Below, piece after piece: positions 3,074 through 59,154 of a stretch of 64,000 nucleotides of DNA. The stretch's first letter is position 1. Each line of letters starts with the position of its first letter. The position numbers and the translations under genes were made by a program. The notes under the pieces are model-generated. The model made no database searches and had not been told where the DNA came from. It was given only the letters and a program-made list of their open reading frames with translations. This DNA comes from Planctomycetaceae bacterium (GTDB lineage Bacteria; Planctomycetota; Phycisphaerae; SM23-33): positions 42,737 through 106,736 of the forward strand of contig JAJFVE010000019.1 of assembly GCA_021371965.1 (NCBI GenBank). Direction: 5' to 3'.

Positions 3074-3151
3074 AATCGGTAGCCAGTAGGCCGCAGCCCG
3101 GCAGAAAATACAACGGAGCAGTCTTAACTGGCTACTGGCTACGGGCTACCG
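3074..3151. repeat. Heptamer-type inverted repeat between ruvA and ruvB
   Basis: The right arm (3127-3153) reads as tandem 7-mers CTGGCTA, CTGGCTA, CGGGCTA, CCGGTGA. The left arm around 3077-3090 carries the inverted form, with GTAGCCAGTAG (3079-3089) exactly complementary to 3132-3142. It ends right at the ruvB start region. The same unit family recurs at 24686-24753. Confidence 0.75.
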
Positions 3152-3163
3152 GTGACTAAACCC

Positions 3164-4201
3164 ATGGCACGAGAACGCATAGTATCGGGCGAGGAACTCG
3201 GCGGCGACGACGAGCAGCTCAATCGGGCGCTGCGCCCGCAGTCGCTGGAAGAGTGCATCGGCATGAGCGACCTGCTGGAGAAGCTGCGCATCTCCATCAC
3301 CGCCTCGCGGCAGCGCAACGAACCGATGGAGCACGTGCTGCTGCACGGGCCGCCCGGGCTGGGCAAGACCACGCTGGCGTACGTCATCGCCCATGAGATG
3401 GGCAGCGCCATCAAGGTGACCTCCGGGCCGGCGCTGACCCGCGCGGGCGACCTGATTGGCATCCTGACCAACCTCGACACGCGCGACGTGCTGTTTATCG
3501 ACGAGATCCACCGCCTCGCCCCGGCCGTCGAGGAGTACATCTATCCGGCGATGGAAGACTTCAAGGTCGACTTCGTCGTCGACTCGGGCATGCACAGCCG
3601 CACGATCAATCTGCCGCTCAAGCCCTTCACGCTGATCGGCGCCACGACGCGCAGCGGCATGCTCAGCCCGCCGCTGCGGACGCGGTTCGGCATCACGCAC
3701 CACCTGGACTTCTGGAGCCCGCAGGAGCTGCTGGCCCGCGGACACATGAGCGCCAAGATGCTGGGCATCGCGTATGAAGAAGCCGCACTCGAGCTGCTCA
3801 GCGAGCGCGCCCGCGGAACCCCGCGCATCGCCAACCGCCTGCTGCGCCGCTGCCGCGACTTCGCGCAGGTCAAAGGCGACGGCCGCCTGACGGTCGCGTC
3901 GGTACAGTCGGCGCTGGAACTCGAAGGCATCGACGAATTGGGCCTGGACGACCTGGACCGCCGCTTCCTGCGGATCATCATCGACACGTACCGCGGCGGC
4001 CCGGTGGGCATTGAGGCCGTCGCCGCCACGCTCGGCGACGACACCGACACGCTGGTGGACGTGGTCGAGCCATTTCTGCTCCAGATGGGCCTGCTGGCGC
4101 GCACCCGCCGCGGACGCCTGGCGACGATCAAGGCGTACAAGCACCTGGGCGTGCAAGGCGCCCCGCCGACGGACGACTCGCCGCTGTTCGAGCAGGAGTA
4201 A
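3164..4201 (+). CDS. ruvB: Holliday junction branch-migration helicase RuvB
   Basis: AAA+ hexameric motor that drives branch migration with RuvA. The 345-residue product has Walker A (GPPGLGKTTLA), Walker B (LFIDEIHRL), the RuvB beta-hairpin region (EDFKVDFVVDSG), sensor 1 (GATTRSGMLS), the arginine finger region PPLRTRFGI, and a C-terminal winged-helix domain (GPVGIEAVAATLGDD). An upstream in-frame GTG at 3152 lies in the repeat arm, so the ATG at 3164 is preferred. It closes a C-A-B ordered ruv cluster. Confidence 0.96.
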   Translation: MARERIVSGEELGGDDEQLNRALRPQSLEECIGMSDLLEKLRISITASRQRNEPMEHVLLHGPPGLGKTTLAYVIAHEMGSAIKVTSGPALTRAGDLIGILTNLDTRDVLFIDEIHRLAPAVEEYIYPAMEDFKVDFVVDSGMHSRTINLPLKPFTLIGATTRSGMLSPPLRTRFGITHHLDFWSPQELLARGHMSAKMLGIAYEEAALELLSERARGTPRIANRLLRRCRDFAQVKGDGRLTVASVQSALELEGIDELGLDDLDRRFLRIIIDTYRGGPVGIEAVAATLGDDTDTLVDVVEPFLLQMGLLARTRRGRLATIKAYKHLGVQGAPPTDDSPLFEQE

Positions 4202-4207
4202 TCCATA

Positions 4208-4234
4208 CGCGCGAGGCAAGCCCCACCGCTAACG
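4208..4234. repeat. 27-nt dispersed element (GCTAACG type)
   Basis: These 27 bases are the reverse complement of 36609-36635 with one mismatch, and 16 bases of the core recur at 2286-2301. The element fills the 27-base gap between the convergent ruvB and beta-helix genes and overlaps the latter's stop codon. Confidence 0.7.
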
Positions 4235-5743
4235 CGGCGCGCCGCCCACACTCTCGACAGCCTCTTTGCCCAAACGCTCCTGGAGTTGCGCCCGGTACAA
4301 GCTTCGCGGTTCGACGGGGCGGCCGGGCGACTCGATGTGGCCTTTGCCGCTCATCTTTGGCGTGATGCACCCGATGGCAAAGTTCTGCGACGTTGGCGGC
4401 TTCTGGCAATCCAGGCTCGTGGCCGTGCAGTTCCAGAAGACCATCACCGACCCGGCCCAGCCATGGCCGGTGCCGCTGCGCCCTCGGTTCTGCACGTTCA
4501 GCGGGCCGCACGTCACGTTGTCGTAAAGCGTGCCGGCAGACCAGCGATGGTGCGGTCCGCTGTCGGCGTGAGCCTTCTCGGCCTTGCAATCGACAAAGGC
4601 GTTCGGCCCGGGCACGCGGGCGTGCATGACGAAATCGTGCCGGCCGTTGCGGGCGTAGCATCGCTGCACCAGCGCAAGCTGCCCCGCCAGGGCGAACGAG
4701 TACCGCCGCCCGCCGGTGATCTTCGAGATCGGGTCCAGGCACTGGCAGTCCTGCACCGTCACGCGACTGGCCGTCGCGCTTGCGTTGACGCAGCTATAGG
4801 CGAAATGCACTGCCGTCACGTTGCGAACCCACGCGTCCTGCACCGCACCGATATGCACCATGTCCCAGGCGTGCTTCTCGTCGGTCTCGCCGCTGTACTG
4901 CGACTGCCCGCGAAGGTTCTCAACGCCAACGTGGCGAAGGCGGCCGGGCCATTGGTACTTGTACACCTCGCCGCCGCCCCACTGCCGCTCGATGGCGCAT
5001 GCGATCGGGGCGTCGATGGTCACCTTGTTGCCCTCGATCTTCGTGACCACGCGCTGGAACGAGAGCGTCAGCGGCTGCCAGTTCTTCACCGGATCGTCCG
5101 GGCCGCGGTTGAGCTTGTCGGCCCCGAGGGTATGAATCCACTCCTGGTTGCCGTGGCGGGCGACGATCACTTCGTCGCCGACGGCCAGGCCTTGGGTTGA
5201 GTCCAGGCTGAAGCTGTGTGCGCCGACGCTCACGTAATCGTCGACGATTGCATGGCGCGTTCCCTTCACTTCCTCAGCTTTGCCGCTGCCGCCAACGGCG
5301 ATGAGCGTGTGCTTCCTCTTGGCCGCAGCGACCAGGACAGTGCCCTTATCGCCGTCGCCCTCGCCGCGCAGCACCACCCCGCTTGAGCGAATGTAGATCG
5401 TGTCGCCGACTTCATAGATGCCTTTCGTGAGCAGCACCGCCCCGCGCAGTCCTGCGGCATCGGCAGGCAGGGCGGAGACCTTGTCGATGGCGTCCTGGAT
5501 GCGCTGCCGCTGATCGCCCGCCTGCGGCGCAAGTGTCTCGCGCACGGGCGCCTCGGGCAGTTTCACGCCGCCGCCCATGTATCCGCAGTTGGAGAAATCG
5601 GGAATGCAGTCGCCTTTGTCGCTGTAGGGCGCATAGACGAGCTTGCCATCGGCGCCGACCTTGACGAGTTTGCTCTCGCCCGCGCTGACGATCTGCGCCA
5701 GCAGGATCACCGCGATAGTCCCGGGAATACCTGCGCGCGTCAT
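4229..5743 (-). CDS. Secreted right-handed beta-helix (pectate-lyase-like) protein
   Basis: 504-residue product with an N-terminal signal peptide (hydrophobic stretch TIAVILLAQIVSAG). The body has the rhythm of a parallel beta-helix protein: an N-terminal cap with DNTIYIRSSGVVLRG-like residues (GDTIYIRSSGVVLRGEGDGD), then successive rungs with VTVQDCQCLDP, NAFVDCKAEKAH and YDNVTCGPLNVQNRG. Such folds are found in pectate lyases and other carbohydrate-active enzymes; the substrate cannot be read here. The ATG at 5743 is chosen over a GTG at 5752 because GAGGTG lies 6 bases upstream. It stands alone on the minus strand. Confidence 0.75.
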   Translation of the reverse strand: MTRAGIPGTIAVILLAQIVSAGESKLVKVGADGKLVYAPYSDKGDCIPDFSNCGYMGGGVKLPEAPVRETLAPQAGDQRQRIQDAIDKVSALPADAAGLRGAVLLTKGIYEVGDTIYIRSSGVVLRGEGDGDKGTVLVAAAKRKHTLIAVGGSGKAEEVKGTRHAIVDDYVSVGAHSFSLDSTQGLAVGDEVIVARHGNQEWIHTLGADKLNRGPDDPVKNWQPLTLSFQRVVTKIEGNKVTIDAPIACAIERQWGGGEVYKYQWPGRLRHVGVENLRGQSQYSGETDEKHAWDMVHIGAVQDAWVRNVTAVHFAYSCVNASATASRVTVQDCQCLDPISKITGGRRYSFALAGQLALVQRCYARNGRHDFVMHARVPGPNAFVDCKAEKAHADSGPHHRWSAGTLYDNVTCGPLNVQNRGRSGTGHGWAGSVMVFWNCTATSLDCQKPPTSQNFAIGCITPKMSGKGHIESPGRPVEPRSLYRAQLQERLGKEAVESVGGAPR

Positions 5744-5788
5744 CTGCAGCACCTCATCGCCGCTTGCGGCGTAGCGTCTTTACGGATG

Positions 5789-5986
5789 TTACAGATTCCA
5801 CGCCTTGGCGAACGCCTTGAAGCTGCGATCAAAGGTCTTCTCCACTTCCGGCGGGAAGCAGCACCCGGGAAGCTGCTTGTTCTTGAGGTGGTACGCCAGG
5901 CAGTCGCAGCAGACGCCCCGGCGGTCGCAGGCGTCGTAACTGCACGTGCATCGATCGGTGCTATTGCTTTGCTTCTTGCACTCCAT
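5789..5986 (-). CDS. Small cysteine-rich protein, DUF6485-like
   Basis: 65-residue protein with nine cysteines in the order CK, CTC, C, CC-DC and GCC, embedded in a conserved-looking core (CDRRGVCCDCLAYHLKNKQL, then PGCCFPPEVEKTFDRS). This pattern resembles the small family named DUF6485. The cysteines could bind Zn or an Fe-S cluster; the function is unknown. It lies 11 bases downstream of the double thioredoxin-fold gene on the same strand, so the two are probably co-transcribed. An AAGGA Shine-Dalgarno precedes the ATG. Confidence 0.7.
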   Translation of the reverse strand: MECKKQSNSTDRCTCSYDACDRRGVCCDCLAYHLKNKQLPGCCFPPEVEKTFDRSFKAFAKAWNL

Positions 5987-5997
5987 GGGCGGTTCCT

Positions 5998-8169
5998 TTA
6001 TTCAAACAGTTCCGGTCTTCCATCGAGTTTCTTCTCCAGCATATCGGCCGCCCGCAGCGTGAAATTCGCCTCGGGACAATCGGCCTTCATCTTGTCGAGG
6101 CGTTTTTTGATGTCGGCAGAGCGGCGGCCGTAGCGCCGGTCCCAGTCTTCCGACTCCTGTCCGCCGGCCGGTCGCGCGGGCAGCGACTCGATATCGCGTG
6201 CCAGCACGAGGAAGGCCGCCTCGGCCTTGCGCTCTCGCTGGAAGTCTGCGTTTGCGTTGAGCTTCTTGAGGATCTGCTGCGCGTCGTCGGCGATTTCCGT
6301 GCCGTCATACGTGCGAATGATGCGGTTGACCATGTTCAACGTCTCGGCGGGCGCCCGCATGGGGTTCGCGCCTGCGCGTTGCAGCAGCCATCCGCCGTAG
6401 GCCTCCAACTGCGGCAAGAGCTTGCGCGCCTCGACGCCGACAGGCCCGCTCTGGTCTCGCGTCTTGCGCGCCACGTTCAGGGCGTCGCCGAGACGGTCGC
6501 GTTTGATGCGCGACACAACGGCCACGCTGTTGGGGTACGTCGCGCCGTCGAGCATGGGAAACTCCGGGCGGGCCTTGAGGCACTCGACGACCTTGGCGAG
6601 CATCTTGTCGTCCGGGGCGCCCTGCCAGGCGGCCTTGCCCTGGTGATTGTAGACCACCGCATAAGGAAGACCCTTGACCGGAATGGCGCCCTTGGTCTTC
6701 GCCGCCAGAATGACCGTGGAAGGAAAGTCGCATCGTCGCGCCGCGTCGACAGCCGCCTGGCGGGGTCCGCTCGTCGCCACCGCCACGCTGACCAGGCCGC
6801 TGCGACGGTACGTCTTGGCGACGCGGGACAGTTCGTTGAGCGTCCGCATCGCCGGCGCATCATCATGTTTGTAGAAGACCAGCATGACGACCTGGCCGAT
6901 CAAATCGTCGGCCGTCAGTTCCGGACCCACCCAGACTTCCGTAAATGACATGGCTGCCAGTGGCGACTGGGCCCATGGCAGCGGCGGATACTCTCTCGTC
7001 GCAACGGCGGCAAGACTGTCGCCGCTCTTGTCGCCGGGAATTTTCAGATCATTGCCCGGCAATTTGAGTTCGTCCAGCGACGAGGTGGAAGACTTTCCCT
7101 CGACCAGTTGTTTGGCCTTGCGCGTCAGGGGGCTGGAGGGATGGTCGGTCTCCATTTTGGCCACTTCTTTAGTTAACTGGTCCAGCAGCTTGGCGTATTT
7201 CTTGTCCCATGCCTCGCGCTCCGGCCCGCCGCTGGGGCGAGGCGGGCTGGACTCGATCAGCCGCTGGATGTTGCGAAACACGGGCTCGGCTTTGCGATTG
7301 GCCTGATAGACAGGGTCGTCGGCCAGATCGGCCACTCGTTTCCGGGCGTGCTCGCCAGCGGCGCTGCCGGCGTAGAGCTTCGCCAGGCGAGTGTAAAGTT
7401 CCAGGGCCTGTGCGGGCGAGTCTTCCGTGGCCTTGGACGCCTGAGTCTGCAGATATCCGGCGTAGGCCGTCAGCCGCGCATACAGCCGCGTGGCCTGGGC
7501 GGCGACCTTCTTCGCGGCCTCGGCGCCGGTGGCGTCTTTCCACTTCTGGCAGTCGGCCATCGCCTCGCCGAGCTTGTCGCGGCGGATCTTGGCGACGATG
7601 GGCCCGAGCAAGTCGTAGTTGACGTCCAGCACGGGATGGCCGGGGTTCTCGCGCACCAGCTTGGTCAGCAGCGGCACGAGAGTCTTGTTGATGGTCTGGG
7701 GATCGGGGAATCCCTGCCAGGCGAGGGTTCCGTTGTAGTCGTAGACGGCCATGTGCGGCGCGACCTGAATGTCGAGGTTGAACCGCTCGCCCGCCACGAC
7801 CGTCAGGCGGCGGTTCTTGGATGCAGATTCCTGGGCGGCCTTGGCCCGATCATCGGCGTTGCCAAGATACCCCGCCACCCCCACCAGGCCCCCGCGCTGA
7901 AAGAGCCCCACCAGAGCATCGGCGTCGGAAAGGGCTTTCTGCCCCGTGCGGTCGTTGGTCTTCCAGAACACCACCAGGACAGGTTTGCCCCACAGCGCGG
8001 TTTCGTCCAGCGGATCGCCCGCGTAGACGTTCTTGAGATCGACCTTGCTCAACGGCGAGGTGGGCCACCATGGGCCTTGCTGGGCCGCTGCCGGCGCCGC
8101 AGCGGCCGCGAGAAGCATCCCGACAGCCAGGGCTGCCAAACTGTTCTTCCCACATCTGGCGTGACGCAT
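5998..8169 (-). CDS. Secreted protein with two redox-inactive thioredoxin-like domains
   Basis: 723 residues from the ATG at 8169, which starts a clear signal peptide (LAALAVGMLLAAAAAPAAAQ). Two thioredoxin/AhpC-like domains follow, at about residues 30-190 and 400-540. Each has the fold's beta1-alpha1 opening (GKPVLVVFWKTNDRTG; GQVVMLVFYKHDDAP) and a cis-Pro-like segment (APHMAVYDYNG; GLPYAVVYNHQG), and each is followed by a helical, TPR-like stretch with RIKRDRLGDAL-type repeats. The position where CxxC would lie has no cysteine in either domain, so disulfide chemistry is not expected. The family is not recognised; a protein-binding role is guesswork. An in-frame upstream start at 8220 is possible but would disturb the signal peptide. 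Confidence 0.7.
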   Translation of the reverse strand: MRHARCGKNSLAALAVGMLLAAAAAPAAAQQGPWWPTSPLSKVDLKNVYAGDPLDETALWGKPVLVVFWKTNDRTGQKALSDADALVGLFQRGGLVGVAGYLGNADDRAKAAQESASKNRRLTVVAGERFNLDIQVAPHMAVYDYNGTLAWQGFPDPQTINKTLVPLLTKLVRENPGHPVLDVNYDLLGPIVAKIRRDKLGEAMADCQKWKDATGAEAAKKVAAQATRLYARLTAYAGYLQTQASKATEDSPAQALELYTRLAKLYAGSAAGEHARKRVADLADDPVYQANRKAEPVFRNIQRLIESSPPRPSGGPEREAWDKKYAKLLDQLTKEVAKMETDHPSSPLTRKAKQLVEGKSSTSSLDELKLPGNDLKIPGDKSGDSLAAVATREYPPLPWAQSPLAAMSFTEVWVGPELTADDLIGQVVMLVFYKHDDAPAMRTLNELSRVAKTYRRSGLVSVAVATSGPRQAAVDAARRCDFPSTVILAAKTKGAIPVKGLPYAVVYNHQGKAAWQGAPDDKMLAKVVECLKARPEFPMLDGATYPNSVAVVSRIKRDRLGDALNVARKTRDQSGPVGVEARKLLPQLEAYGGWLLQRAGANPMRAPAETLNMVNRIIRTYDGTEIADDAQQILKKLNANADFQRERKAEAAFLVLARDIESLPARPAGGQESEDWDRRYGRRSADIKKRLDKMKADCPEANFTLRAADMLEKKLDGRPELFE

Positions 8170-8243
8170 GGAGTTATCATACCATTGCGATGATGGCCTG
8201 CCAAGGTTGTCGCCGGACAAGTGGAATGCACTCAGTCATGGTG

Positions 8244-8337
8244 GGAAAGTCGCGGCGGTATGATACCCGGGCCAACTGTTTATCAACGCCTGCAAAACGG
8301 CATTGATGAACACTTGGTGCCTCCGCCGCGACTTTCC
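8244..8337. repeat. Nested inverted repeat (long hairpin) upstream of the pterin enzyme gene
   Basis: Outer arms 8244-8258 and 8323-8337 are perfectly complementary over 15 bases. Inside them, 8277-8290 and 8299-8312 are complementary at 12 of 14 positions around an 8-base centre. The whole 94-base element can fold as one long hairpin. It lies in the gap between the divergent genes at 8169 and 8383. No T-tract follows, so it is not a plain terminator. Confidence 0.75.
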
Positions 8338-8382
8338 CCCCGGAAACCCGGCTGCACGACCGCGCTAGAATGGGACAGTAAT

Positions 8383-8784
8383 ATGGCGATATACGAAATC
8401 AGCGTCGATCATGCCTTCACGGCCTCGCATGCGGTATTGATGCCCAACGGGCAGATGGAGAAACCGCATCGCCATGACTGGATGGTGATGGTTTCTTTTC
8501 GCGCCGGGCAAGTCGACGCCCGCAGCGGCATGGTTGCCGACTTCCTGGTCGTCAAGAGCGCCCTGGATCAGGTGTGCGGCCTGATGGACGCAATGGATCT
8601 CAACTCGCTGGGGCTGCTGGGCGGCGACATTCCCACAGCCGAGCGCGTCGCGCGATTCATCGCCGAGGAAATCTTGCGCCGCCATGGCCTGGAACATTCG
8701 CTTTATTGCGTGCAGGTGACCGAGGCGGTCGGCTGCCGGGCGGCATTTTATCCGTGGCTTGACGAGCCTCCGTGCCGATCTTAG
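8383..8784 (+). CDS. 6-pyruvoyl-tetrahydropterin synthase family protein, PTPS-III-like
   Basis: 133 residues, tunnel-fold family. Zn-binding histidines are visible in FTASHAV and in the H-R-H of MEKPHRHDW. Catalytic-site residues sit around GMVADFLVVKSALDQV and the late QVTEAVGCRAAFY segment. The usual catalytic Cys (CxxxHGH of QueD/PTPS) is absent; the segment reads ExxHxH, as in PTPS-III enzymes reported to bypass FolB in folate synthesis. A folate role is therefore an inference; a divergent queuosine enzyme remains possible. The ATG at 8383 is chosen from homology; TAGAAT (8365-8370) is a possible -10 with a very short leader. Confidence 0.8.
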   Translation: MAIYEISVDHAFTASHAVLMPNGQMEKPHRHDWMVMVSFRAGQVDARSGMVADFLVVKSALDQVCGLMDAMDLNSLGLLGGDIPTAERVARFIAEEILRRHGLEHSLYCVQVTEAVGCRAAFYPWLDEPPCRS

Positions 8785-8787
8785 GAT
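8782..8787 (+). promoter_or_regulatory. Candidate leaderless -10 box for mcsA
   Basis: TAGGAT, overlapping the stop codon of the preceding gene, stands 6 bases before the mcsA ATG. The AGGATGGA sequence could equally act as a weak Shine-Dalgarno, so the two readings compete. Confidence 0.3.
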
Positions 8788-8793
8788 GGAAGC

Positions 8794-10328: not shown

Positions 10329-10332
10329 CGGC

Positions 10333-10454
10333 ATTTCGATTTCCAATTTCCGATTTGGAATTTCCAATTGAAGAACAGGCGATGCCATCGGATAGCCCGA
10401 TACTGGGCGGATCCCGTTGTTCAATTGGAAATTGAAAATCGGAAATTGGAAATG
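10333..10454. repeat. Heptamer-type inverted repeat between mcsB and bioD
   Basis: The left arm (10333-10376) is a run of 7-mers of the ATTTCCA/ATTTCCG type. The right arm (10418-10454) is an inverted run of AATTGGA-type 7-mers; GAAGAAC/GTTCAATT-like ends border the 41-base spacer. The element occupies the convergent gap from 5 bases after the mcsB stop to 3 bases before the bioD stop. The same unit family is at 58078-58184. Confidence 0.85.
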
Positions 10455-10456
10455 GA

Positions 10457-12563: not shown

Positions 12564-12569
12564 GGCCGT

Positions 12570-12889: not shown

Positions 12890-12903
12890 CGGAGGAGGAG
12901 ACA

Positions 12904-13593: not shown

Positions 13594-13604
13594 AGATGAT
13601 GGAC

Positions 13605-13707
13605 GGTCGCCATCGCGACCGATCCTCCGCCAAGGGTGTCCCTGACGCTTGAAGATCCTGAGAGCGTGGGCGAGACGCCCACGTCACGCGCGGACGAGAC
13701 GTCCGCG
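13605..13707. repeat. Cluster of short palindromic hairpins
   Basis: Three hairpins in about 100 bases: GGTCGC-CATC-GCGACC (13605-13620), GTGGGCGAGACGCCCAC (within 13665-13683) and GCGGACGAGACGTCCGC (within 13689-13707). The last two share the GAGAC loop and belong to the same family as 48198-48319 and 56715-56743. They lie between the convergent PEP-CTERM and hydrolase genes, with no T-tract. Confidence 0.75.
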
Positions 13708-13737
13708 ACACGGGCGATTCCTCACGGCGCTGTCGCG

Positions 13738-17347: not shown

Positions 17348-17470
17348 TTGTGCTGCCGGGTGCCGTGGCGGGACGGCGAAGCCCGACAGCCACGACGAAA
17401 CGCTGCTGGGCATCCTGGGATCGTGGCTCTCCGGGCCTGCAGCCCTGCGAGCCACGCCACCCACGCGTGG
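17346..17470. repeat. Two GTGGC-type inverted repeats after recG
   Basis: Two imperfect hairpins: one bounded by CGTGGC and GCCACG (17364-17394), the other by CGTGGCTC and GAGCCACG (17422-17456) with an inner GGGCCTGCAGCCC palindrome. They lie within the 199-base recG-hisI gap. Their similar outer ends suggest one repeat family. No T-tract follows either. Confidence 0.65.
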
Positions 17471-24684: not shown

Positions 24685-24685
24685 C

Positions 24686-24753
24686 AGTACCCCGTAGCCG
24701 GTAGCCAGGAAATCTCGAAGCGTTGTTCTCCATCACGGGCTACCGGCTCCTGT
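24686..24753. repeat. Heptamer-type inverted repeat between SafE and HYExAFE genes
   Basis: The left arm (24686-24712) contains TAGCCGG-TAGCCAG 7-mers. The right arm (24735-24753) contains the inverted CGGGCTA-CCGGCTC. It spans the convergent gap almost from stop to stop. The units match those at 3074-3151. Confidence 0.7.
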
Positions 24754-24755
24754 TT

Positions 24756-26480: not shown

Positions 26481-26640
26481 TCTTCGCTTGGCGTAATCCG
26501 CTGGCATGGCGCACGCATGCTTCTCGCAGGGCGCCATGCGGCCTGTGAATCATTCCCCATTTGAATGCGCTATCTTTGCGCGCATATCGTGCCCCTACCG
26601 TTCGACCTAAGCGGCAATAGTTCAACCACCGCGTCGGGTG

Positions 26641-26740
26641 GGCCGCAGAGACACGGAGCTCACGGAGACGGGGCAGGATCTTGGCAAAGAGGAACACAAA
26701 TACAAGTTCCTCTCTGTGTTCTCTGTGCCTCTGTGGCCCA
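26641..26740. repeat. Nonamer-type inverted repeat before the isomerase-like gene end
   Basis: The left arm (26641-26670) has 9-mers CGCAGAGA(C), CACGGAGCT, CACGGAGAC. The right arm (26707-26740) has the inverted CTCTGTGTT, CTCTGTGCC, TCTGTGGCC. It lies between the convergent basic-protein and isomerase-like genes and ends 5 bases before the latter's stop. The rest of the 265-base gap shows nothing else. Confidence 0.75.
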
Positions 26741-30509: not shown

Positions 30510-30520
30510 ACGCCACAACT

Positions 30521-30600
30521 TGCCACAAAGATCACAAAGAACACGAAGAAGTAATTTCCTCGTCGTCTTCCCTTTGTGGTCTTTGTGTCCTTCGTGGCAA
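30521..30600. repeat. Nonamer-type inverted repeat between pterin dehydratase and SDR genes
   Basis: The left arm (30521-30551) has 9-mers CACAAAGAT, CACAAAGAA, CACGAAGAA. The right arm (30570-30600) has CTTTGTGGT, CTTTGTGTC, CTTCGTGGC. The 18-base centre is short, so a long hairpin could form in RNA between the two pterin-related genes. Confidence 0.8.
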
Positions 30601-32219: not shown

Positions 32220-32308
32220 AACCGCAAAGATCGCAAAGGGCGCAAAGGAGAAAGTGTTATTGTTCTTTTCCAAGAACCCTTTGCGTGCTTTGAGATCTTT
32301 GCGGTTAA
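32220..32308. repeat. Nonamer-type inverted repeat between divergent DUF456 and EamA genes
   Basis: The left arm (32221-32250) has 9-mers CGCAAAGAT, CGCAAAGGG, CGCAAAGGA. The right arm (32275-32307) has the inverted CTTTGCGTG, CTTTGAGAT, CTTTGCGGT. This is the only such repeat lying between divergent starts. Confidence 0.8.
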
Positions 32309-33332: not shown

Positions 33333-33335
33333 AAA

Positions 33336-33445
33336 CAGATCCTAGATCCTAGGTCCTCGATCCTAGGCGGGGAAACCACAAACAAGACGGTCCTAGATCC
33401 CCGGTTTTTCCCGAGGATCTAGGACCTGTCATCTAGGATCTGTTG
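33336..33445. repeat. Heptamer-type inverted repeat between EamA and serA
   Basis: The left arm (33337-33369) is a run of 7-mers AGATCCT, AGATCCT, AGGTCCT, CGATCCT. The right arm (33411-33443) is the inverted CGAGGAT, CTAGGAC, CTAGGAT series. A middle GGTCCTAGATCC adds a third copy. It fills the convergent gap, leaving 3-4 bases at each stop codon. Confidence 0.85.
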
Positions 33446-35063: not shown

Positions 35064-35087
35064 GGTCTTGCTCCTTTCAGAAACCTA

Positions 35088-35248
35088 CCACAGAGACACA
35101 GAGGGCGCAGAGGTGAAAAACGGAAGGACGGAATGGTGAATTAATGAGTTGACGGGCGCGGCCATTGGGCGGCGTTTACCCATCCTTCCATTCTTCCATT
35201 CTTCCATCATTCCCCGTACCTCAGTCTTCTCTGAGCCTCTGTGGTCAG
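35088..35248. repeat. Nested double inverted repeat between aminotransferase and serA
   Basis: The outer pair is nonamer type: CACAGAGA(C), CACAGAGGG, CGCAGAGGT at 35088-35116 against TTCTCTGAG, CCTCTGTGG at 35224-35248. The inner pair has 8-base periodicity: GGAAGGAC-GGAATGGT (35121-35141) against CTTCCATT-CTTCCATT-CTTCCATC (35182-35215). One element appears inserted within another. Confidence 0.75.
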
Positions 35249-35258
35249 TTGTTCGTTG

Positions 35259-40285: not shown

Positions 40286-40290
40286 GTGGC

Positions 40291-40424
40291 AGGGATTAGG
40301 TCATAGGGTCTAGGGCTTAGGGTCTCGATATGATGTCTGGTGCGTTGGCGGCTATTGCCGCCTTATTCGACGCTCGACGAATCTGCGCCCTATGACCTAC
40401 GACCCAAGACCTAAACCCTATCCC
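40291..40424. repeat. Heptamer-type inverted repeat containing the stop codon of the PPC gene
   Basis: The left arm (40291-40325) is 7-mers AGGGATT, AGGTCAT, AGGGTCT, AGGGCTT, AGGGTCT. The right arm (40388-40424) is CCTATGA, CCTACGA, CCCAAGA, CCTAAAC, CCTATCC. The TAG of the minus-strand PPC-domain gene (40418-40420) lies within the right arm. The interior has GGCGGC-TATT-GCCGCC at 40347-40362. Confidence 0.85.
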
Positions 40425-44629: not shown

Positions 44630-44762
44630 AGTTGTGAGTTGTGAGTCCTCGCCCCGAAGGGGCGACAGAATTTAGCCGGGGGCGTCAGCCCCCGGAAAGA
44701 TGTCTTTTAGGCGCAGAGCCCCGAAGGGGCGACAGGTTTTTTGCCCAAGGCGCACGCCTCGG
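44630..44762. repeat. Palindromic repeat cluster between argC and argJ
   Basis: GCCCCGAAGGGGC occurs twice (44651-44663 and 44718-44730), each followed by GACAG. CCGGGGGCGTCAGCCCCCGG (44676-44695) and a weaker AAGGCGCACGCCTCGG (44747-44762) complete the set. Two tandem AGTTGTG heptamers (44630-44645) begin the cluster, with no inverted partner seen. This is a REP-like element. Confidence 0.8.
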
Positions 44763-49650: not shown

Positions 49651-49659
49651 GGTGACGCC

Positions 49660-50103: not shown

Positions 50104-50105
50104 TA

Positions 50106-50137
50106 TGGAGCGCGGCAGCCTTAGCTGCCGCACTCCA
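50106..50137. repeat. Small palindrome before the SDR gene
   Basis: GCGGCAGC-CTTA-GCTGCCGC (50112-50131) is flanked by TGGAG and CTCCA. It is a single short hairpin immediately after the ACT gene and could act as a weak terminator; no T-tract follows. Confidence 0.6.
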
Positions 50138-50149
50138 CAGGAGCTTACC

Positions 50150-50905: not shown

Positions 50906-50945
50906 GCGCACCGCCGTTAAAGATGTGGGTTCAACAGATGGGCTG

Positions 50946-50951
50946 TAAAGT
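50946..50951 (+). promoter_or_regulatory. Candidate leaderless -10 box for the PQQ-propeller gene
   Basis: TAAAGT sits 6 bases before the ATG at 50958, with no Shine-Dalgarno. The box is weak alone but fits the TANNNT pattern. Confidence 0.3.
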
Positions 50952-50957
50952 CCGTCT

Positions 50958-53900: not shown

Positions 53901-54284
53901 GAAGGTAACCTGCTGCTGGTACTCTCGGGCACCACGACTGCGGCCTACGAGGACTGGGGCAAGTACTGGCGCGACGTGTTCAATCCCAACTGGGCGCGGA
54001 TGTTCGTCGATGTCTTTGACCGCACCACCGGGGCCCACCAAGGACGCCAGCAGTTGGGCGATCTGCCTTACTGCACATTCGGCAGCGACGGCATGGACAC
54101 GCAGGCGCGATTCGTGGGGGAGACCGTCGTGGTGACGGCCCCGGACGGCGTGCATGTTTTCAAGCCCAAAGCCGGCGGCGCCAAGATCGACAACCCCCCG
54201 CCGCCGCCTCCGCTGCCGCCCAAAGAGCCGATCAAACCGAGGGCCGCGCCAGCCAAACGTCCCAAGAACCGTCTGGCCCACTAG
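50958..54284 (+). CDS. Very large PQQ-like beta-propeller protein
   Basis: 1108 residues with an N-terminal signal ([20 protein letters not shown]). A helical region (residues 20-230) resembling TPR-type repeats precedes a long stretch of outer-membrane BamB/PQQ-like blades: [76 protein letters not shown]. Each has the D/A-x-x-T-G-x-x-x-W pattern. The end is Pro-rich and basic. Planctomycetes carry many such giant proteins; the role is unknown. No quinoprotein catalytic set was recognised. Confidence 0.8.
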
Positions 54285-54311
54285 CCGATTGCTTTCCCGT
54301 GATTGGCCTCG

Positions 54312-54317
54312 TAAGAT
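54312..54317 (+). promoter_or_regulatory. Candidate leaderless -10 box for guaA
   Basis: TAAGAT is 7 bases before the ATG at 54325 and overlaps the competing ATG at 54316. It thus favours the start at 54325. Confidence 0.4.
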
Positions 54318-54324
54318 GCGCCCG

Positions 54325-55884
54325 ATGACCACAGCACAAGCGCAATCGGAAACGATCGTCATTCTCGATTTCGGCAGCCAGTACGCCCAGCTCATCGCCC
54401 GGCGCGTGCGCGAAAACGGCGTCTACAGCGTGCTGGCGCGCCCCGACGTTACACTCGACGAAATCGCGGCGCTCAATCCGCGCGGGCTGATCTTCACCGG
54501 CGGGCCATCGAGCGTCTACGAAACCGGCGCCCCCCGCTGCCGGGCGGAAGTCTTCAATCTCGGCGTGCCGATCCTGGGCATCTGCTACGGGATGCAGCTC
54601 GCCTGCCAGATGCTCGGCGCCGAGGTGCGCAGCGCCCCCTCGCGCGAGTACGGCCGCACCACCCTGAACGTCACCGAGGGCGGACACTTTCTCAAGGGCG
54701 TCCCGGCCGAGACCACCGTCTGGATGAGCCACGGCGACCAGGTGCGCGAGCTCAACGACGACTTCGTCTCGCTGGCGGCCACGCCCACCTGCCCCATCGC
54801 GGCGGTGCGCCACAAGACTCGCCCGTTCTACGGCGTGCAGTTCCACCCGGAAGTCACGCACACGCCGCACGGGCGCGAGATCTTCGTCAACTTCCTGTAC
54901 GACATCTGCAAATGCCAGGGCCTGTGGAAGATGGGCTCGTTCATCGAGGCCGTCGTGTCGGACGTGCGCTCGCGCGTGGCGGCCGACGAACGCGTCATCT
55001 GCGGGCTCTCGGGCGGGGTCGACTCCTCCGTGCTGGCGGCCCTGCTGCACAAGGCCATCGACACGCGGCTCTCGTGCATCTTCGTCGATAACGGCCTGCT
55101 GCGGCTCAACGAAGTCGAGCTCGTCGAGACGACGTTCAAGGATCACTTCAAGATCAACCTGACGACCGTGCGCGGGGCGGACGATTTTCTGACGAACCTC
55201 AAGGGCGTGATCGACCCGCAGCAGAAGCGCCGCGTCATCGGGCACACGTTCATCGACATGTTCAAGCGGGCCGCCAAGAGCATCCCCAACGCCCGCTACC
55301 TCGCCCAGGGCACGCTGTACCCCGACGTGATCGAGTCTGGCCACTCGCTGGCCGGGCAGGCGGCCAACATCAAGCTGCACCACAACGTCGGCGGCCTGCC
55401 GGCCGAGCTTGGCTTCGACCTGATCGAGCCGCTGCGCGACTTGTTCAAGGACGAGGTGCGGCAGGTCGGCGAGCTGCTGGGCCTACCCGAGCAGGTCGTC
55501 TGGCGCCACCCCTTCCCCGGCCCGGGGCTGGCCGTGCGGTGCCTGGGCGAAGTCACGCCCGCACGCCTGGAAGTGCTGCGCAAGGCCGACAACATCGTCA
55601 TCGAAGAAATCACGGCCGCCGGGCTCTACCGCAAGACCGCCCAGACCTTCTGCGTGCTGCTGCCGGTTCAGTCGGTAGGCGTAATGGGCGACGGCCGCAC
55701 GTACGAAAACGTGGTGGCCGTGCGCTCGGTGGACACCTCCGACTTCATGACCGCCGACTGGTCGCGCATCCCCTACGACGTGCTGGCGACAATCTCCAAC
55801 CGCATCATCAACGAAGTCCGCGGGATCAATCGCGTGGTCTACGACATCAGTTCCAAACCCCCCGCGACGATCGAATGGGAATGA
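54325..55884 (+). CDS. guaA: GMP synthase (glutamine-hydrolysing)
   Basis: 519 residues. Class I amidotransferase domain: [20 protein letters not shown], the nucleophile Cys in [14 protein letters not shown] and the His/Glu in [12 protein letters not shown]. The ATP pyrophosphatase domain has [20 protein letters not shown], then the C-terminal dimerisation domain ending [18 protein letters not shown]. It makes GMP from XMP. The ATG at 54325 is preferred over that at 54316; a longer frame from 54154 lies in the preceding gene's end. Confidence 0.97.
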
Positions 55885-55933
55885 CCCGCAAGAGATTCCC
55901 GAATAACCCTCTACCTCTTTTCCGGTTTGAGCC

Positions 55934-56710
55934 ATGTTCTATAAACTCATCAAATCACTAGTCCTGCCGCTGAGCGTGATCCTGATCGCGATGATCGTCG
56001 GCCTTGTGTTGACGCGCCGTGCGAATGCGGAAAAGCGCCGGCGGTTCCGCGCGGGGCGCATCCTGCTGATCGCCGCGGCGGCTCTGCTGTATCTGCTGAG
56101 CATCCCGCCGGTGGCGGACCTGCTGGTGCGGCCGCTGGAATCGGGCTACCCCCGCTCCGACGCGGCGGCGCTCCAGGGCGTGCAGGCGGTGGTCGTGCTG
56201 ACCGGCGGCGCGGGCCAGGCCAACGCCTTGCGGCCTGAGGCCGCGCCCGGAGGAGTAAGCCTGGCCAGGATCATCCATGGCGTAGAAGTGTTCCGCGCCT
56301 CCGGCGCGCAGCACTTGGTCATCACCGGCGCCGCGCCGGACCAGGCCGTTAGCGAAGCGGCGACGATGAAGGCCGTCGCGATCAAGATGGGCGTGCCAAC
56401 GGACAAGATCGTTCTGGAGGAAAAGGCCACGAGTACCGCCGAGCACGCCCCGCGCGTGCTGGAAGCGATGCCCGAACTTGCCGGCATGAAGATCGCCCTG
56501 GTGACGTCGGCCCTGCACATGCCGCGGTCAGTCGGGGCGTTCCGCAAACACTTCCGAAGCGAGCAGCTAGTGCCCTGCCCCTCGGACTGGCTGTACAACT
56601 CCGAGCCATGGACGCTGCGCACCTTCGCTCCCAGCGCCGACTCGCTGGCCAAGAGCACCAACGCCTGCGTGGAGTACATCGGGCGGCTGTGGTATTGGCT
56701 GCGAGGCTAA
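55934..56710 (+). CDS. YdcF/ElyC-type DUF218 membrane-anchored protein
   Basis: 258 residues. Two N-terminal membrane helices (LVLPLSVILIAMIVGLVL and ILLIAAAALLYLLSIPP) precede a DUF218 Rossmann-like domain: AVVVLTGGAGQ, HLVITGAAPDQAVSEAATM, EEKATSTAEHA and IALVTSALHMPRSVGAFR. ElyC of E. coli is linked to peptidoglycan precursor metabolism. A cell envelope role is inferred from the family. Confidence 0.85.
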   Translation: MFYKLIKSLVLPLSVILIAMIVGLVLTRRANAEKRRRFRAGRILLIAAAALLYLLSIPPVADLLVRPLESGYPRSDAAALQGVQAVVVLTGGAGQANALRPEAAPGGVSLARIIHGVEVFRASGAQHLVITGAAPDQAVSEAATMKAVAIKMGVPTDKIVLEEKATSTAEHAPRVLEAMPELAGMKIALVTSALHMPRSVGAFRKHFRSEQLVPCPSDWLYNSEPWTLRTFAPSADSLAKSTNACVEYIGRLWYWLRG

Positions 56711-56714
56711 AACC

Positions 56715-56743
56715 CGTGTCGCGGGCGAGACGCCCGCGACACG
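56715..56743. repeat. Perfect 29-nt palindrome after the YdcF-like gene
   Basis: CGTGTCGCGGGCG and CGCCCGCGACACG are perfectly complementary 13-base arms with a 3-base loop (AGA). It is the longest hairpin of the GAGAC-loop family. It lies 5 bases after the stop and may help termination, although no T-tract follows. Confidence 0.8.
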
Positions 56744-56812
56744 TAACGAGCTACATCGTCACCTCGCTGTAATCGAGCACCTCGAAAAATGATCAGGTCG
56801 TGGCCGCAGGCT

Positions 56813-56818
56813 TATAAT
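56813..56818 (+). promoter_or_regulatory. Candidate leaderless -10 box for the GtrA-like gene
   Basis: A perfect TATAAT ends 5 bases before the ATG at 56824. No Shine-Dalgarno exists in between. The -35 position reads TGATCA, a poor match. Confidence 0.45.
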
Positions 56819-56823
56819 TGTTC

Positions 56824-57216
56824 ATGCTTGTTAAGTACCTACTTTATCTGCTTCGGTGGCAGCTTTCGACGCCGATCCTGGCCGGCTGCGTCTACCTGCT
56901 GACGCGGCACCTTGGGGCCACGCTGACCACCGTCATCGCCAATTTCATCGGCGGGCTGATCTTCTTCTGGGTGGACCGCTGGATCTTCACGCGCACGAGC
57001 ATCCTGCACTCGGGCGAACTGTGGGAGGCCCTGCCCAATGTTACCTGCGCCGACTGCCACCAGACCGTCCAGCGTGGCTACCGTCTCGTGAGGGCGGGCA
57101 GTTACGACCGCTCGCGCGATCGCCATCCGCAGTTCCGCTGCCACGAATGCTCGCGCCGAAAGTACCTGCGAACACAGCAAGAAATCGCCGCCACCTCAAA
57201 AGCGAATACAGAATAA
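56824..57216 (+). CDS. GtrA-like membrane protein with C-terminal zinc ribbon
   Basis: 130 residues. Two hydrophobic helices (STPILAGCVYLL and TTVIANFIGGLIFFW) with the GtrA-like VDRWIFTRTS end. They are followed by a soluble part with two cysteine pairs, CADCHQ and CHECSRRK, spaced about 38 residues, consistent with a zinc ribbon. Joining of a GtrA-type membrane hairpin to a zinc ribbon is unusual. An in-frame TTG two codons upstream is ignored. Confidence 0.65.
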   Translation: MLVKYLLYLLRWQLSTPILAGCVYLLTRHLGATLTTVIANFIGGLIFFWVDRWIFTRTSILHSGELWEALPNVTCADCHQTVQRGYRLVRAGSYDRSRDRHPQFRCHECSRRKYLRTQQEIAATSKANTE

Positions 57217-57371
57217 AACGCTCCCGCGTGTGCGGAAGCGTAAATAGGGCTTGTGCTTTCAGTACAGATGGGTTGCCAAGACGAAGTTCGCCGTTGCCCC
57301 CAAAGCGAGAGCTCGGCTTCGCGTGCACCGCTCGTGGAAGTCTTCGTTCGCCACAAGCGGCGAACGAAGAC

Positions 57372-57444
57372 TGGAGCCGAGGGGGCTCGAACCCCTGACC
57401 TGCTGATTGCGAACCAGCCGCTCTTCCAACTGAGCTACGGCCCC
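57372..57444 (-). tRNA. tRNA-Ala, anticodon CGC
   Basis: The 73-base minus-strand sequence folds as a cloverleaf: acceptor GGGGCCG/CGGCTCC, D stem GCTC/GAGC, anticodon stem GCTGG/TCAGC, T stem AGGGG/CCCCT and T loop TTCGAGC. The anticodon loop TTCGCAA gives CGC, reading GCG (Ala). The G3:U70 pair, the main alanine identity element, is present. Discriminator A73 is followed by GTC, so CCA is not encoded. Confidence 0.96.
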
Positions 57445-57455
57445 GGAACGTTTCT

Positions 57456-57484
57456 ACTGTATCGGAAAATACCGCCCCTGACAA
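57456..57484 (-). promoter_or_regulatory. Promoter of tRNA-Ala
   Basis: On the minus strand TTGTCA (57484-57479), exactly 17 bases, TACAGT (57461-57456), which is 11 bases before the tRNA 5' end. This is a convincing tRNA promoter. Confidence 0.7.
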
Positions 57485-57498
57485 TAGCCTATGCGCAG

Positions 57499-57527
57499 TT
57501 GAAGCGGAACGTTTGTCGCTTTAGTAT
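57499..57527 (+). promoter_or_regulatory. Promoter of the DJ-1/PfpI gene
   Basis: TTGAAG (57499-57504), 17 bases, TAGTAT (57522-57527), 27 bases before the ATG at 57555. It is back to back with the tRNA promoter on the other strand. Confidence 0.55.
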
Positions 57528-57554
57528 ACAAGCAGCACAATGCAGGAGCGTCCT

Positions 57555-58076
57555 ATGAAACTTCAAGGCAAGCGCATCGCTATCATGATCGACCAGGGCT
57601 ACCAGGAGATCGAGGTCTGGTACCCATACTATCGCTTTATCGAGGAAGGCGCGCAGGTCATGTTCGTCGGCCCTGAGGCCAAGACCGCCTATCCGTCGAA
57701 GCTGGGTTATCCCTGCACGTCGCACGTATCGGCCACTCAGGTCCACGGCAAGGACTTCCACGCCGTTGTAGTGCCCGGCGGATGGGCGCCTGACTTCATG
57801 CGCCGCGACGAGGGCATGGTCCGTTTCATTCAGCAGTGCGTCGCAGCCGACATCGTTTTGGCGGCGATCTGCCACGGCGGATGGATGCTCTGCTGCACCG
57901 ATGCCCTGCGCGACAAGCGGGCGACAAGCTTCATGGCGATTCGCTTCGACATGATCAACGCCGGCGCCCACTGGGTCGACGAGCAATGCGTCGTCGACGG
58001 AAAGCTCATCACGGCCCGCAAGCCCGACGACCTGCCGGCGTTCTGCCGGGCGATTACTGATTCGCTGGCCTTGTGA
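57555..58076 (+). CDS. DJ-1/PfpI family protein
   Basis: 173 residues. The fold starts KRIAIMIDQGYQEIEVWYPY with the acidic residue of the site; the nucleophile elbow is LAAICHGGWMLCC, and VVPGGWAPDF precedes it. Family members include cysteine proteases, glyoxalases and stress chaperones, and the exact activity here is unknown. The ATG at 57555 follows CAGGAG; a start at 57540 is an in-frame alternative. A heptamer repeat separates it from the convergent yggS. Confidence 0.85.
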   Translation: MKLQGKRIAIMIDQGYQEIEVWYPYYRFIEEGAQVMFVGPEAKTAYPSKLGYPCTSHVSATQVHGKDFHAVVVPGGWAPDFMRRDEGMVRFIQQCVAADIVLAAICHGGWMLCCTDALRDKRATSFMAIRFDMINAGAHWVDEQCVVDGKLITARKPDDLPAFCRAITDSLAL

Positions 58077-58077
58077 C

Positions 58078-58184
58078 CATTTCCAATTTCCAATTTACAA
58101 TTTCCAATTGAACAACGGTGGCGCTGCGAGGCGGTCGGGCGTCTTGTCTTAAATTGGAGATTCCAAATTGGAAATTGGAAATGC
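58078..58184. repeat. Heptamer-type inverted repeat between DJ-1 and yggS genes
   Basis: The left arm (58079-58115) is 7-mers TTTCCAA, TTTCCAA, TTTACAA, TTTCCAA. The right arm (58151-58183) has AAATTGG, CAAATTG, GAAATTGG-type units inverted. It covers exactly the space between the two stop codons. Same unit family as 10333-10454. Confidence 0.88.
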
Positions 58185-58913
58185 TTACTGCGCGAACAAC
58201 GCGCGCCCAATGCGGAGCATGGTCGCGCCTTCGGCGACGGCCAGGGGATAATCGTCGCTCATGCCCATGGAGAGATGCTTGAAGGCTGGTCCGCCGATCT
58301 TCTGGCTGCGGATTTCTTCAAAGAGCTCTCGCAGACGCACGAAGGCCGCCCGGGCGCCCTCGGGGCCGCCTTCGGTCGGACCGATGGTCATCAGCCCCAC
58401 CAGGCGCACCGACTTGAGCGTAATGGCCAACTCCGCCATGTGCAGGGCGGCGCCGACGGCGCAGCCGGATTTCTGAGGTTCCTCGGTGCAGTTGACCTGC
58501 AGGAGGATATCGACGGTCTTTTCGTCCTTTTCGGCGCGGGCATTGATTTCTTCGGCCAATCGCAACGAGTCGACCGAGTGGACGACCTGCACGAAGGGAA
58601 GGACCTTTCGAACCTTGTTCCGCTGCAGCGTGCCGACCATGTGCCAACGCGGCGTCAGGGGCTGGTCGCTTCGGCGCCGGGCGATCCAGGCGTTGATGGC
58701 CTCGGCTCGCTCGGCGAGGATCTGGGCGCGGCTTTCGGCCACGTCCGTCACGCCGGCCTCGAGCAGGGCCTTGACAGCGTCGAGTTGGCCGCTCTTGGTG
58801 ACGGCGACGATGGAGACGTCCTTTTCGCTGCGCCGCGCGGCGCGGCAGGCGCCGGCGATGTTCTGGCGGATCTGCTGCAGGTTCTTCAGGATGCGGTTCT
58901 TGGTCAACGCCAT
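58185..58913 (-). CDS. PLP homeostasis protein (YggS family)
   Basis: 242 residues. VSIVAVTKSGQLDAVKALLE carries the PLP lysine. ESRAQILAERAEAI, RWHMVGTLQRNKVRKVLPF, VVHSVDSLRLAEEINARAEK and LSMGMSDDYPLAVAEGATML follow in the family order. It binds and delivers PLP without a known reaction. The usual HxIG segment reads HMVG here. The stop codon abuts a heptamer repeat. Confidence 0.94.
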   Translation of the reverse strand: MALTKNRILKNLQQIRQNIAGACRAARRSEKDVSIVAVTKSGQLDAVKALLEAGVTDVAESRAQILAERAEAINAWIARRRSDQPLTPRWHMVGTLQRNKVRKVLPFVQVVHSVDSLRLAEEINARAEKDEKTVDILLQVNCTEEPQKSGCAVGAALHMAELAITLKSVRLVGLMTIGPTEGGPEGARAAFVRLRELFEEIRSQKIGGPAFKHLSMGMSDDYPLAVAEGATMLRIGRALFAQ

Positions 58914-59083
58914 AGCGGAGGCACAATACCGCGCTGGGCGGCGATTAGCAAGGGCTCGCGGCGCCGGATGCGAAGAAACAACCTCGCCGCGGATATCACA
59001 GAGAACGCTGAGGGGACGGGAGTGCGGGATTACCGGCCGGAGCGGGTCTGGGGGGACTTGAATTAGCCGCTGAGGTCGCTAAG

Positions 59084-59154
59084 GAAGACAGTTGTGAGGT
59101 GTGAGCGTTTTGCCACTCACAACTCACAACCCGCCACTCACCACTGCTGTCTTC
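59084..59154. repeat. Heptamer-type inverted repeat at the 3' end of the methyltransferase gene
   Basis: GAAGACAG (59084-59091) pairs perfectly with CTGTCTTC (59147-59154). Inside, GTTGTGAG and GTGTGAG face CACTCAC, AACTCAC, AACCCGC, CACTCAC. The right end overlaps the minus-strand stop codon at 59153-59155. No other element is seen in the 239-base gap. Confidence 0.8.

Follow-up and report, generated by a model that had tools for sequence, protein, structure and literature searches.

Among the small dispersed elements of bacterial genomes, repetitive extragenic palindromes and bacterial interspersed mosaic elements (REP/BIME) are intergenic hairpins, and the intervening sequences (IVSs) of 23S rRNA genes exist with an open reading frame (ORF) for an S23 protein (S23p) and also in ORF-less form. 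Here, we describe seven inverted repeats with arms of tandem heptamers in a 64,000-nt stretch of DNA from Phycisphaerae (Planctomycetota), referred to as the window, and compare them with these and other described systems. Very probably, the seven loci are non-autonomous copies, lacking an ORF, of small mobile elements that form one class with several families.

In the excerpted text of PMC4990558, the IVS of Coxiella is described as a selfish element with an S23p ORF, which is removed by RNase III; three tandem heptamers (two in some strains) are located just before the ORF, inverted repeats are mentioned for IVSs, and the S23 protein of Xanthomonas campestris is a homopentamer. The class of elements considered here shares with the 23S rRNA IVS its small size, an S23p ORF, tandem heptamers by the ORF (as in the Coxiella IVS) and inverted repeats. 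In contrast to the IVS, which lies inside 23S rRNA and is cut by RNase III, they are situated between protein genes, at many places and with many different units.

A preliminary description of the window stated that no named family with such an inverted arrangement was known. However, inverted heptamers are in print for Xanthomonas, where the excerpts of PMC4692102 count 70 (Xcc) and 75 (Xac) inverted GGGAATC pairs and where these G-quadruplex repeats have, according to the authors, generally no association with mobile elements. The term "four helix" is absent from that article's text as excerpted. A search for GGGAATC in viral contigs gave 3 matches, with up to ~480 nt viewed around each; the Xanthomonas link therefore rests on this publication and on a match (E 7e-24) to PDB 2gsc (XCC0516) of the S23-type protein encoded at L106, a locus of a close relative of the window. 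Further, the excerpts of PMC4679880 report that almost all TAACTGA repeats of Beggiatoaceae are in direct orientation and that, among repeats of 5-11 nt, heptamers are the class found most often in the majority of genomes, for which polymerase slippage was proposed. Among the matches listed in the open-access literature, no publication tied S23/four-helix-bundle or GxxExxY genes generally to inverted tandem arms.

The Xanthomonas and Nostoc GGGAATC/GGGGATT repeats and the short tandemly repeated repetitive sequences (STRRs) of cyanobacteria resemble the present elements in being intergenic tandem heptamers, with inverted pairs in Xanthomonas, and Nostoc edaphicum has GGGAGTA arms around an S23 gene (see below). 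They are described as having one main G-quadruplex unit per organism, whereas here many units occur per genome, several of them without G-tracts. REP/BIME, for their part, are likewise intergenic hairpins; they are associated with REP-associated tyrosine transposases (RAYTs), and the partner protein of the present elements is a four-helix bundle.

Seven heptamer inverted repeats in the window

All seven loci with 7-nt periodic inverted arms listed in the preliminary description were confirmed, and at each of them both the periodicity and the inverted-repeat score exceeded the resampled controls, which were first-order Markov resamples and not exact dinucleotide shuffles (as was also the case for the control of periodic runs described below). 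The two-arm statistic at a lag of 7 nt was reached by 0/1000 resamples at six loci and by 1/1000 at 59084-59154, where 3/400 resamples reached it when any lag from 5 to 12 was allowed; the inverted-repeat score was reached by 0/150 resamples at each locus. All seven elements sit between protein genes and have tandem heptamers in intergenic DNA, the trait of GGGNATC repeats and STRRs. Their arm regularity is uneven, with about two clean units per arm at 24686-24753 as judged by eye. When the seven plus strands were folded as RNA, hairpins with z-scores from -2.0 to -9.6 were obtained.

Five of about ten convergent junctions had been described as filled by such an element, and our own gene caller likewise gave ten convergent gaps, one of which depends on a doubtful 47-aa ORF, with five filled nearly from stop codon to stop codon. 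None of the elements is assigned a strand, except where indicated. The element at 10333-10456, with the unit AATTTCC (TTTCCAA) and arms of 44 nt each that are 89% complementary, fills the gap 10329-10456 between genes for an ATP:guanido phosphotransferase and a BioD-like protein, and a second AATTTCC-family element at 58078-58184 fills the gap 58077-58184. The element at 24686-24753 (GTAGCCG-type unit) occupies the gap 24685-24755, and that at 40291-40419 (TAGGGTC-type unit) the gap 40286-40417. Between the genes for an EamA protein and a 2-hydroxyacid dehydrogenase (SerA-like) lies a composite AGATCCT element (33334-33444), in whose loop a second hairpin with the same unit is nested (33389-33426, minus strand). 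The two loci outside convergent gaps are 3071-3157 (GTAGCCA/G-type unit), between ruvA and ruvB, both on the plus strand, and the short heptamer element at 59084-59154 (GTTGTGAG/GGTGTGAG unit), just 3' of a gene for a pterin-binding enzyme (59153-59935, minus strand). With units read by eye, neither GGG nor CCC occurs in AATTTCC, AGATCCT, GTAGCCG or GTTGTGAG, and such a tract is present in AGGGTCT. Absent from the preliminary description were the membership of the 10333 and 58078 elements in one family, the GTAGCC-type units common to the 3074 and 24686 elements, and the occurrence in the same window of related elements with units of 8/9 nt.

S23-family genes between inverted tandem arms

The assumption that such repeats surround genes for four-helix-bundle and GxxExxY proteins was put to the test. 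Matches to PF05635 (S23/four-helix bundle) were found in 8/8 related genomes, in 97/120 genomes of the class and in 6/10 genomes of other groups. The class sample comprised 82 loci, namely 30 of the 37 matches listed in the related genomes, 28 new loci and 24 in further stretches, with one locus present twice. An inverted repeat across the gene (score of at least 30) was detected at 65 of the 80 scorable class loci (L128 and L164 were unscorable), and 64 of these were tandem-armed, with an arm period of 7 nt in 51, 8 in 11 and 12 in 2, duplicate included; after its removal, 63 of 79 distinct scorable loci were tandem-armed, 50 of them at lag 7. In the other groups, tandem arms were observed at 14 of 17 scorable loci (13 in Acidobacteria and one in Verrucomicrobia; L189 was unscorable and L185 was excluded), with periods of 7 nt in 10, 8 in 2 and 9 in 2. 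By comparison, 113 control genes of 300-520 nt from G081, the closest genome among the 298 searched of the class, yielded one inverted repeat and no tandem arms (0/113).

Plasmids showed a similar profile, in that all 16 fetched PF05635 loci (of 31 matching records) were armed, at lag 7 in 13 and lag 8 in 3, under slightly different settings and without a separate control; one locus scored 29, just short of the 30 required in the other samples. They belong to cyanobacteria (14 loci), Gemmatirosa and Azospirillum. In Nostoc edaphicum, the GGGAGTA arms surround an S23 gene located between the genes for ribonucleotide reductase subunits, and in Picosynechococcus one such element is flanked by cas10 and a cmr3 gene. 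Of the proteins encoded between the arms, five were scanned and assigned to PF05635/TIGR02436, while the others were identified as PF05635 by search; no transposase was found there.

The reverse comparison was made with three class genomes lacking PF05635, in which 400 kb of sampled sequence held a single lag-7 run, which lacked an inverted partner; among three further PF05635-positive genomes, 7 runs were counted in 120 kb of G038 and 16 in 140 kb of G010. The scarcity of heptamer runs in PF05635-free genomes, a small sample with lower GC content (0.52-0.62 vs. 0.63-0.68), supports the protein link, with one miss.

The same units occur with and without the gene. Full elements in G081 are L106 (AGATCCT), L133 (AATTTCC) and L201 (AAATCCT-like), whose units lie at distances of 0, 0 and 1 from ORF-less G081 families; by eye, L200 (TGGAATAA), L125 (TGGATGGA) and L131 (GACGAG) also have units in common with ORF-less families of that genome. 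When 54 units from other genomes were compared with the six ORF-less families listed, 5 were at a distance of 1 or less. For the window, full copies with the same unit were found for AATTTCC (L133) and AGATCCT (L106) in G081 and for GTAGCCG in G203, where L108 is an ORF-bearing element with GTAGCCGG units and a relative of the 3071-3157 element; the S23p ORF between inverted ends is present in these three relatives and absent from the window copies.

Units were alike inside one element and different between families, the 57 non-redundant lag-7 elements comprising 51 distinct heptamers, and slippage or template switching may account for the likeness inside one element. Protein identity correlated with unit distance (Mantel r -0.26, 0/2000 permutations): 41% of the 22 pairs at 60% protein identity or above were within one letter of unit, compared to 1% of pairs below 40% identity. 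This shows that arms and gene travel together.

Genes of the GxxExxY family (PF13366/TIGR04256) were analyzed in the same way. Of 48 fetched loci, 46 were scored (L144 and L145 were excluded) and 41 had inverted repeats, of which 25 were tandem at the PF05635 threshold and 16 fell under it. The period was 9 nt in 12, 10 in 9, 8 in 3 and 11 in 1 of these 25, and 7 nt in none. For periods 7 and 9, the counts of 51/0 for class PF05635 loci (duplicate included) and 0/12 for GxxExxY loci differed with p 3.7e-13. The repeat period mostly follows the protein family, PF05635 having 7/8 nt and GxxExxY 9/10 nt, and exceptions exist. Two of them came from a scan that started from the arms (7/8/9-nt arms 150-1500 nt apart, in a G081 sample and the window), in which 2 of 20 arm pairs enclosed a four-helix-bundle ORF; both ORFs encode TIGR04258 four-helix-suffix proteins of 214-216 aa and lie between 9-nt arms, while the other 18 pairs enclosed either no ORF at all or ORFs that were short and derived from repeats or longer and ordinary. 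By eye, GxxExxY arms (L301-L330, L135-L152) often have a loose CRCRRAG/CRCRRAT unit, unlike the varied PF05635 heptamers.

Dispersal, placement and competing explanations

Dispersal of the families was followed in G081, whose sequences yield larger DNA matches to the window at 76-94% identity. The AATTTCC locus L133 matched 111 stretches of this genome, which by hand count correspond to about 40 places, at least one of them ORF-bearing. Eight AATTTCC copies compared by eye had common subterminal letters, such as GAACAAC, together with a variant third unit, and the copy at C9:73968 was 95% identical to L133 over 55 nt extending beyond the arm. Copies of AGATCCT were also dispersed in G081, one of them with the PF05635 gene of L106. 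An independent build-up of heptamers at each junction was rejected, as the units recur as dispersed families with common subterminal letters (by eye). At C9:29397-29771 of the same genome, the AATTTCC element as a whole occurs three times in tandem, separated by short spacers that are almost identical.

A scan of the G081 sample and the window retained 66 of 242 inverted repeats as tandem-armed; a few of them look like chance, and most are members of recurring unit families with 7-nt (AATTTCC, AGATCCT, AGTAATC, AAATCCT and others), 8-nt (TGGAATAA, TGGATGGN) or 9-nt units (CCGCAGAGN, CACGAATGN, CACAAAGAN). Orthologous gaps were too different between the window and G081, so that clean empty sites had to be discarded as a line of evidence there and cyanobacterial plasmids were therefore used for the comparison of filled and empty sites. 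At four sites in Nostoc/Calothrix plasmids, an element present in one record is missing from another, with flanks ~85-97% identical: one between TraM and hypothetical genes (L235 vs. L248 and L249), one in the ribonucleotide reductase pair (L234 vs. L253), and two close to each other in a single plasmid region (L241 and L242 vs. L250-L252 and L254). In the empty site of L241, stop and start codons overlap as TAATG, and both genes remain intact after the insertion, with at best ATG (3 nt) repeated at the two ends. At the L235 and L234 sites ~13-14 nt appear by eye to have been replaced, and the ends of L242 are blurred. Between orthologous filled sites, the arms of L235 and L296 differ by one unit, and those of L242 and L297 in letters only. 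In the excerpts of PMC8700078, 2 of the 24 genes unique to an Arthrospira strain encode four-helix-bundle proteins. Separately, G010:C1, G103:C4, G024:C9 and G109:C10 contain paired PF05635 elements whose units differ and whose spacing is ~1.3-1.6 kb, as if settling near one another.

The arms, the statistical protein link and the plasmid polymorphism are well supported. Given the protein link, the dispersal and the filled and empty plasmid sites, the window loci are therefore most likely ORF-less copies of S23-protein elements and kin of the 23S rRNA IVS; we are less sure that the Xanthomonas and STRR repeats are members of the same class. The argument of the preliminary description that one architecture with different sequences speaks against spread of one mobile element holds as to the architecture; the units, by contrast, recur as dispersed families, with ORF-bearing copies in G081 for two window families. 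A process that builds repeats at junctions, as proposed there, found mostly no support, and the reading shifts to several families of ORF-less S23-type elements, the unit differing by locus because the families differ in unit.

Several observations weigh against this assignment. No PF05635 match was found among the 40 window ORFs scanned with Pfam, and a tblastn search of the window with 97 PF05635 and 5 related queries (E 0.01), which recovered the known genes in L133 (17 queries) and L106 (76 queries) as a positive check, detected neither a PF05635 nor a GxxExxY gene. For the AGGGTCT and GTTGTGAG elements of the window, no full (ORF-bearing) copy with the same unit was found. Tandem arms were lacking at threshold in 16 of the 80 class loci, the PF05635 loci being mostly each genome's top-scoring matches and not a random draw, and two of the 14 tandem loci of Acidobacteria and Verrucomicrobia (L184 and L188, both Acidobacteria) had 9-nt arms. 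The miss noted above is G109, with six PF05635 genes and no heptamer run in a 140-kb sample. The Mantel correlation is also expected from shared descent without recognition. With respect to movement, the gaps of G081 orthologous to those of the window differ throughout and offer no clean empty sites; target duplication gave no clear signal over 74 elements (z 1.1-2.6 by length over permutation, few full matches); and no movement enzyme was identified, the search being confined to the ORF between the arms.

A full element measures ~0.5 kb and consists of a PF05635 (S23) gene with an inverted arm on either side, each arm made of ~3-5 heptamers, or sometimes octamers, in tandem; ORF-less copies retain the arms and a loop of ~10-120 nt. 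The S23 protein, a pentamer in the solved relative, may recognise its own arms by binding their rows of units, either as DNA or as an RNA hairpin, and promote copying of the element, with cutting and joining presumably carried out by host enzymes or an unseen partner. The window copies would themselves have moved. Copies tend to settle directly after stop codons, most visibly in the convergent gaps of the window, where a long hairpin at a transcript 3' end would be least harmful.

To place the window in a genomic context, 1.106 Mb of G081 were analyzed. Per 100 kb, there were 71 lag-7 runs in convergent gaps, 47 in codirectional gaps and 28 in divergent gaps, compared with 0.8 within genes and none in intergenic DNA after resampling; lags 8 and 9 were also raised, and lags 4, 6 and 12 less so. 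In gaps of 60-600 nt, heptamer elements were present in 5/80 convergent, 14/299 codirectional and 2/116 divergent gaps, and no strong genome-wide convergent enrichment was seen for heptamers alone (Fisher p=0.36 vs. the rest). When 7/8/9-nt elements were pooled, the counts were 18/80, 41/299 and 7/116, with p=0.012 vs. the rest and 0.0009 vs. divergent gaps. The tie to convergent junctions, strong among the gaps of the window, is thus modest genome-wide in G081. The clearer preference is for sites directly after stop codons, with avoidance of divergent gaps: across 24 codirectional gaps with 7/8-nt elements, the median distance was 11.5 nt to the upstream stop and 53.5 nt to the next start, and 18 elements were closer to the former. 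Given this tendency, the five filled gaps out of ten in the window are therefore an extreme sample.

This placement is also what would be expected if the loci were transcript 3'-end structures, that is, bidirectional terminators or RNA-stability hairpins built locally and selected at stop codons, with mobility secondary, an explanation that we regard as unlikely. The stable hairpins and the nearness to upstream stops favour it, as do two gaps of G081 that, by eye, hold other hairpins at the same place: the orthologous ruvA-ruvB gap, which is without the 3071-3157 element, and the junction C69:1704-1866, which has no element like 24686-24753. The terminator role put forward in the preliminary description agrees with the folding, but terminator-like sites (hairpin plus T-rich tail) overlapped only 2/7 elements (24686 and 33334) and their total counts were near those of shuffles, in a scan that permits loops of 3-8 nt only and lets longer-loop sites escape. 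Local building also leaves unexplained one family at ~40 places and the PF05635 link. As S23-element copies, the window loci may also act as 3'-end hairpins.

Another improbable alternative is that the S23 protein acts as a partner resembling Avd, the accessory protein of diversity-generating retroelements (DGRs), and that movement proceeds by way of RNA, a reverse transcriptase (RT) being supplied in trans. The partner is a four-helix-bundle relative in both systems, PF05635-Avd homology was suggested (PMC10053308, excerpt), and the transcript of the element would fold as a long hairpin. The L106 and L167 proteins matched the Avd model weakly, with E 3e-4 and 7e-4, which is below the cut-off of the model; unlike in DGRs, no RT or variable region turned up near the elements, although no RT search was made. 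Given the kinship between S23 and Avd, an RNA route may still apply to S23 elements.

Ordinary miniature inverted-repeat transposable elements (MITEs), moved by a transposase encoded elsewhere with the PF05635 gene as cargo, appear decidedly improbable. They have in common with the present elements the small size, the inverted ends, numerous short ORF-less copies and a gene-bearing partner in the genome of a relative (a coding partner with the same ends in one genome is seen in G081 for AATTTCC and AGATCCT), and only 2/20 pairs in the arm-first scan enclosed a four-helix-bundle ORF, so that PF05635 is missing from most arm pairs. In contrast to MITEs, the partner protein here is something other than a transposase, target duplication gave no clear signal, the ends are tandem units of varied and not of fixed sequence, and PF05635 or GxxExxY genes are armed at most loci. 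Least probable is a purely mutational product, in which slippage makes heptamers and template switching copies them to the other arm; the one-unit difference between L235 and L296 and the abundance of heptamers ascribed to slippage (PMC4679880, excerpt) agree with it, but it predicts neither a specific protein gene between the arms, nor a period that goes with the protein family, nor filled and empty sites.

S23-type elements offer a possible cause for the heptamer repeats of cyanobacteria and Xanthomonas, whose origin is left open in the excerpted publications on them, a genomic context for TIGR02436 and GxxExxY, both of them common protein families without a characterised function, and a link to the 23S rRNA IVS. 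The tendency of the period to follow the protein is simple and open to binding assays, and it points to DNA movement without a recognisable transposase. More tentatively, and with somewhat less than even confidence, one very widespread transposase-free class might be envisaged, with STRRs, Xanthomonas GGGAATC repeats and 23S IVSs all as members, in which the only protein of the element sets the unit length (7/8 nt for short PF05635 four-helix bundles, 9/10 nt for GxxExxY nucleases) and the letters are free and, with the divergence of families, rewritten together across the copies of both arms, perhaps by repeated copying of a short template.

Other repeats and genes of the window

The window has a GC content of 65% and an ordinary gene content, which by Pfam/NCBIfam includes cysS, ruvC, ruvA, ruvB, bioA, recG, argJ, guaA and nuoN; the names bioD, serA and argC were assigned by inference. 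Its SerA-like protein is at most 74% identical to those of metagenome-assembled genomes of Phycisphaerae/Planctomycetota, and its GuaA is 99% identical to that of G081, which was also the sole return of a search for congeners. At Rfam gathering scores, the window holds one tRNA, no rRNA and one Acido-Lenti-1 RNA (RF01687, 56.8 bits) at 44650-44695 on the minus strand, between the genes called argC and argJ, which is adjoined by a short AGTTGTG tandem at 44630-44646.

Related elements with longer units, all without assigned strand, were also recorded. One with CACGAATGN 9-mer arms lies at 2130-2400 between ruvC and ruvA; the orthologous gap of G081 has a 9-mer element with a shorter loop, and the same unit flanks a GxxExxY gene in L152 of that genome. 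A related ORF-less element with CACAAAGAN 9-mer arms is located at 30520-30600, and a possible ORF-less element with degenerate 8/9-mer arms and weak periodicity at 26639-26740. Inverted repeats with 8/9-nt units, possibly of GxxExxY type, were noted at 35082-35250 and 32220-32306 (CACAGAGA, CGCAAAGNN), the latter overlapping the called start region of the EamA gene. Downstream of recG, an element of ~105 nt (17357-17462) has ~30 dispersed relatives in G081 (77-85% identical) and, being non-heptameric, represents a different repeat family. Finally, a 52-nt stretch with a 24-nt period at 13662-13713 lies in a convergent gap; G081 contains a small number of sequences resembling it, one of them, at C53, with 96% over 52 nt.

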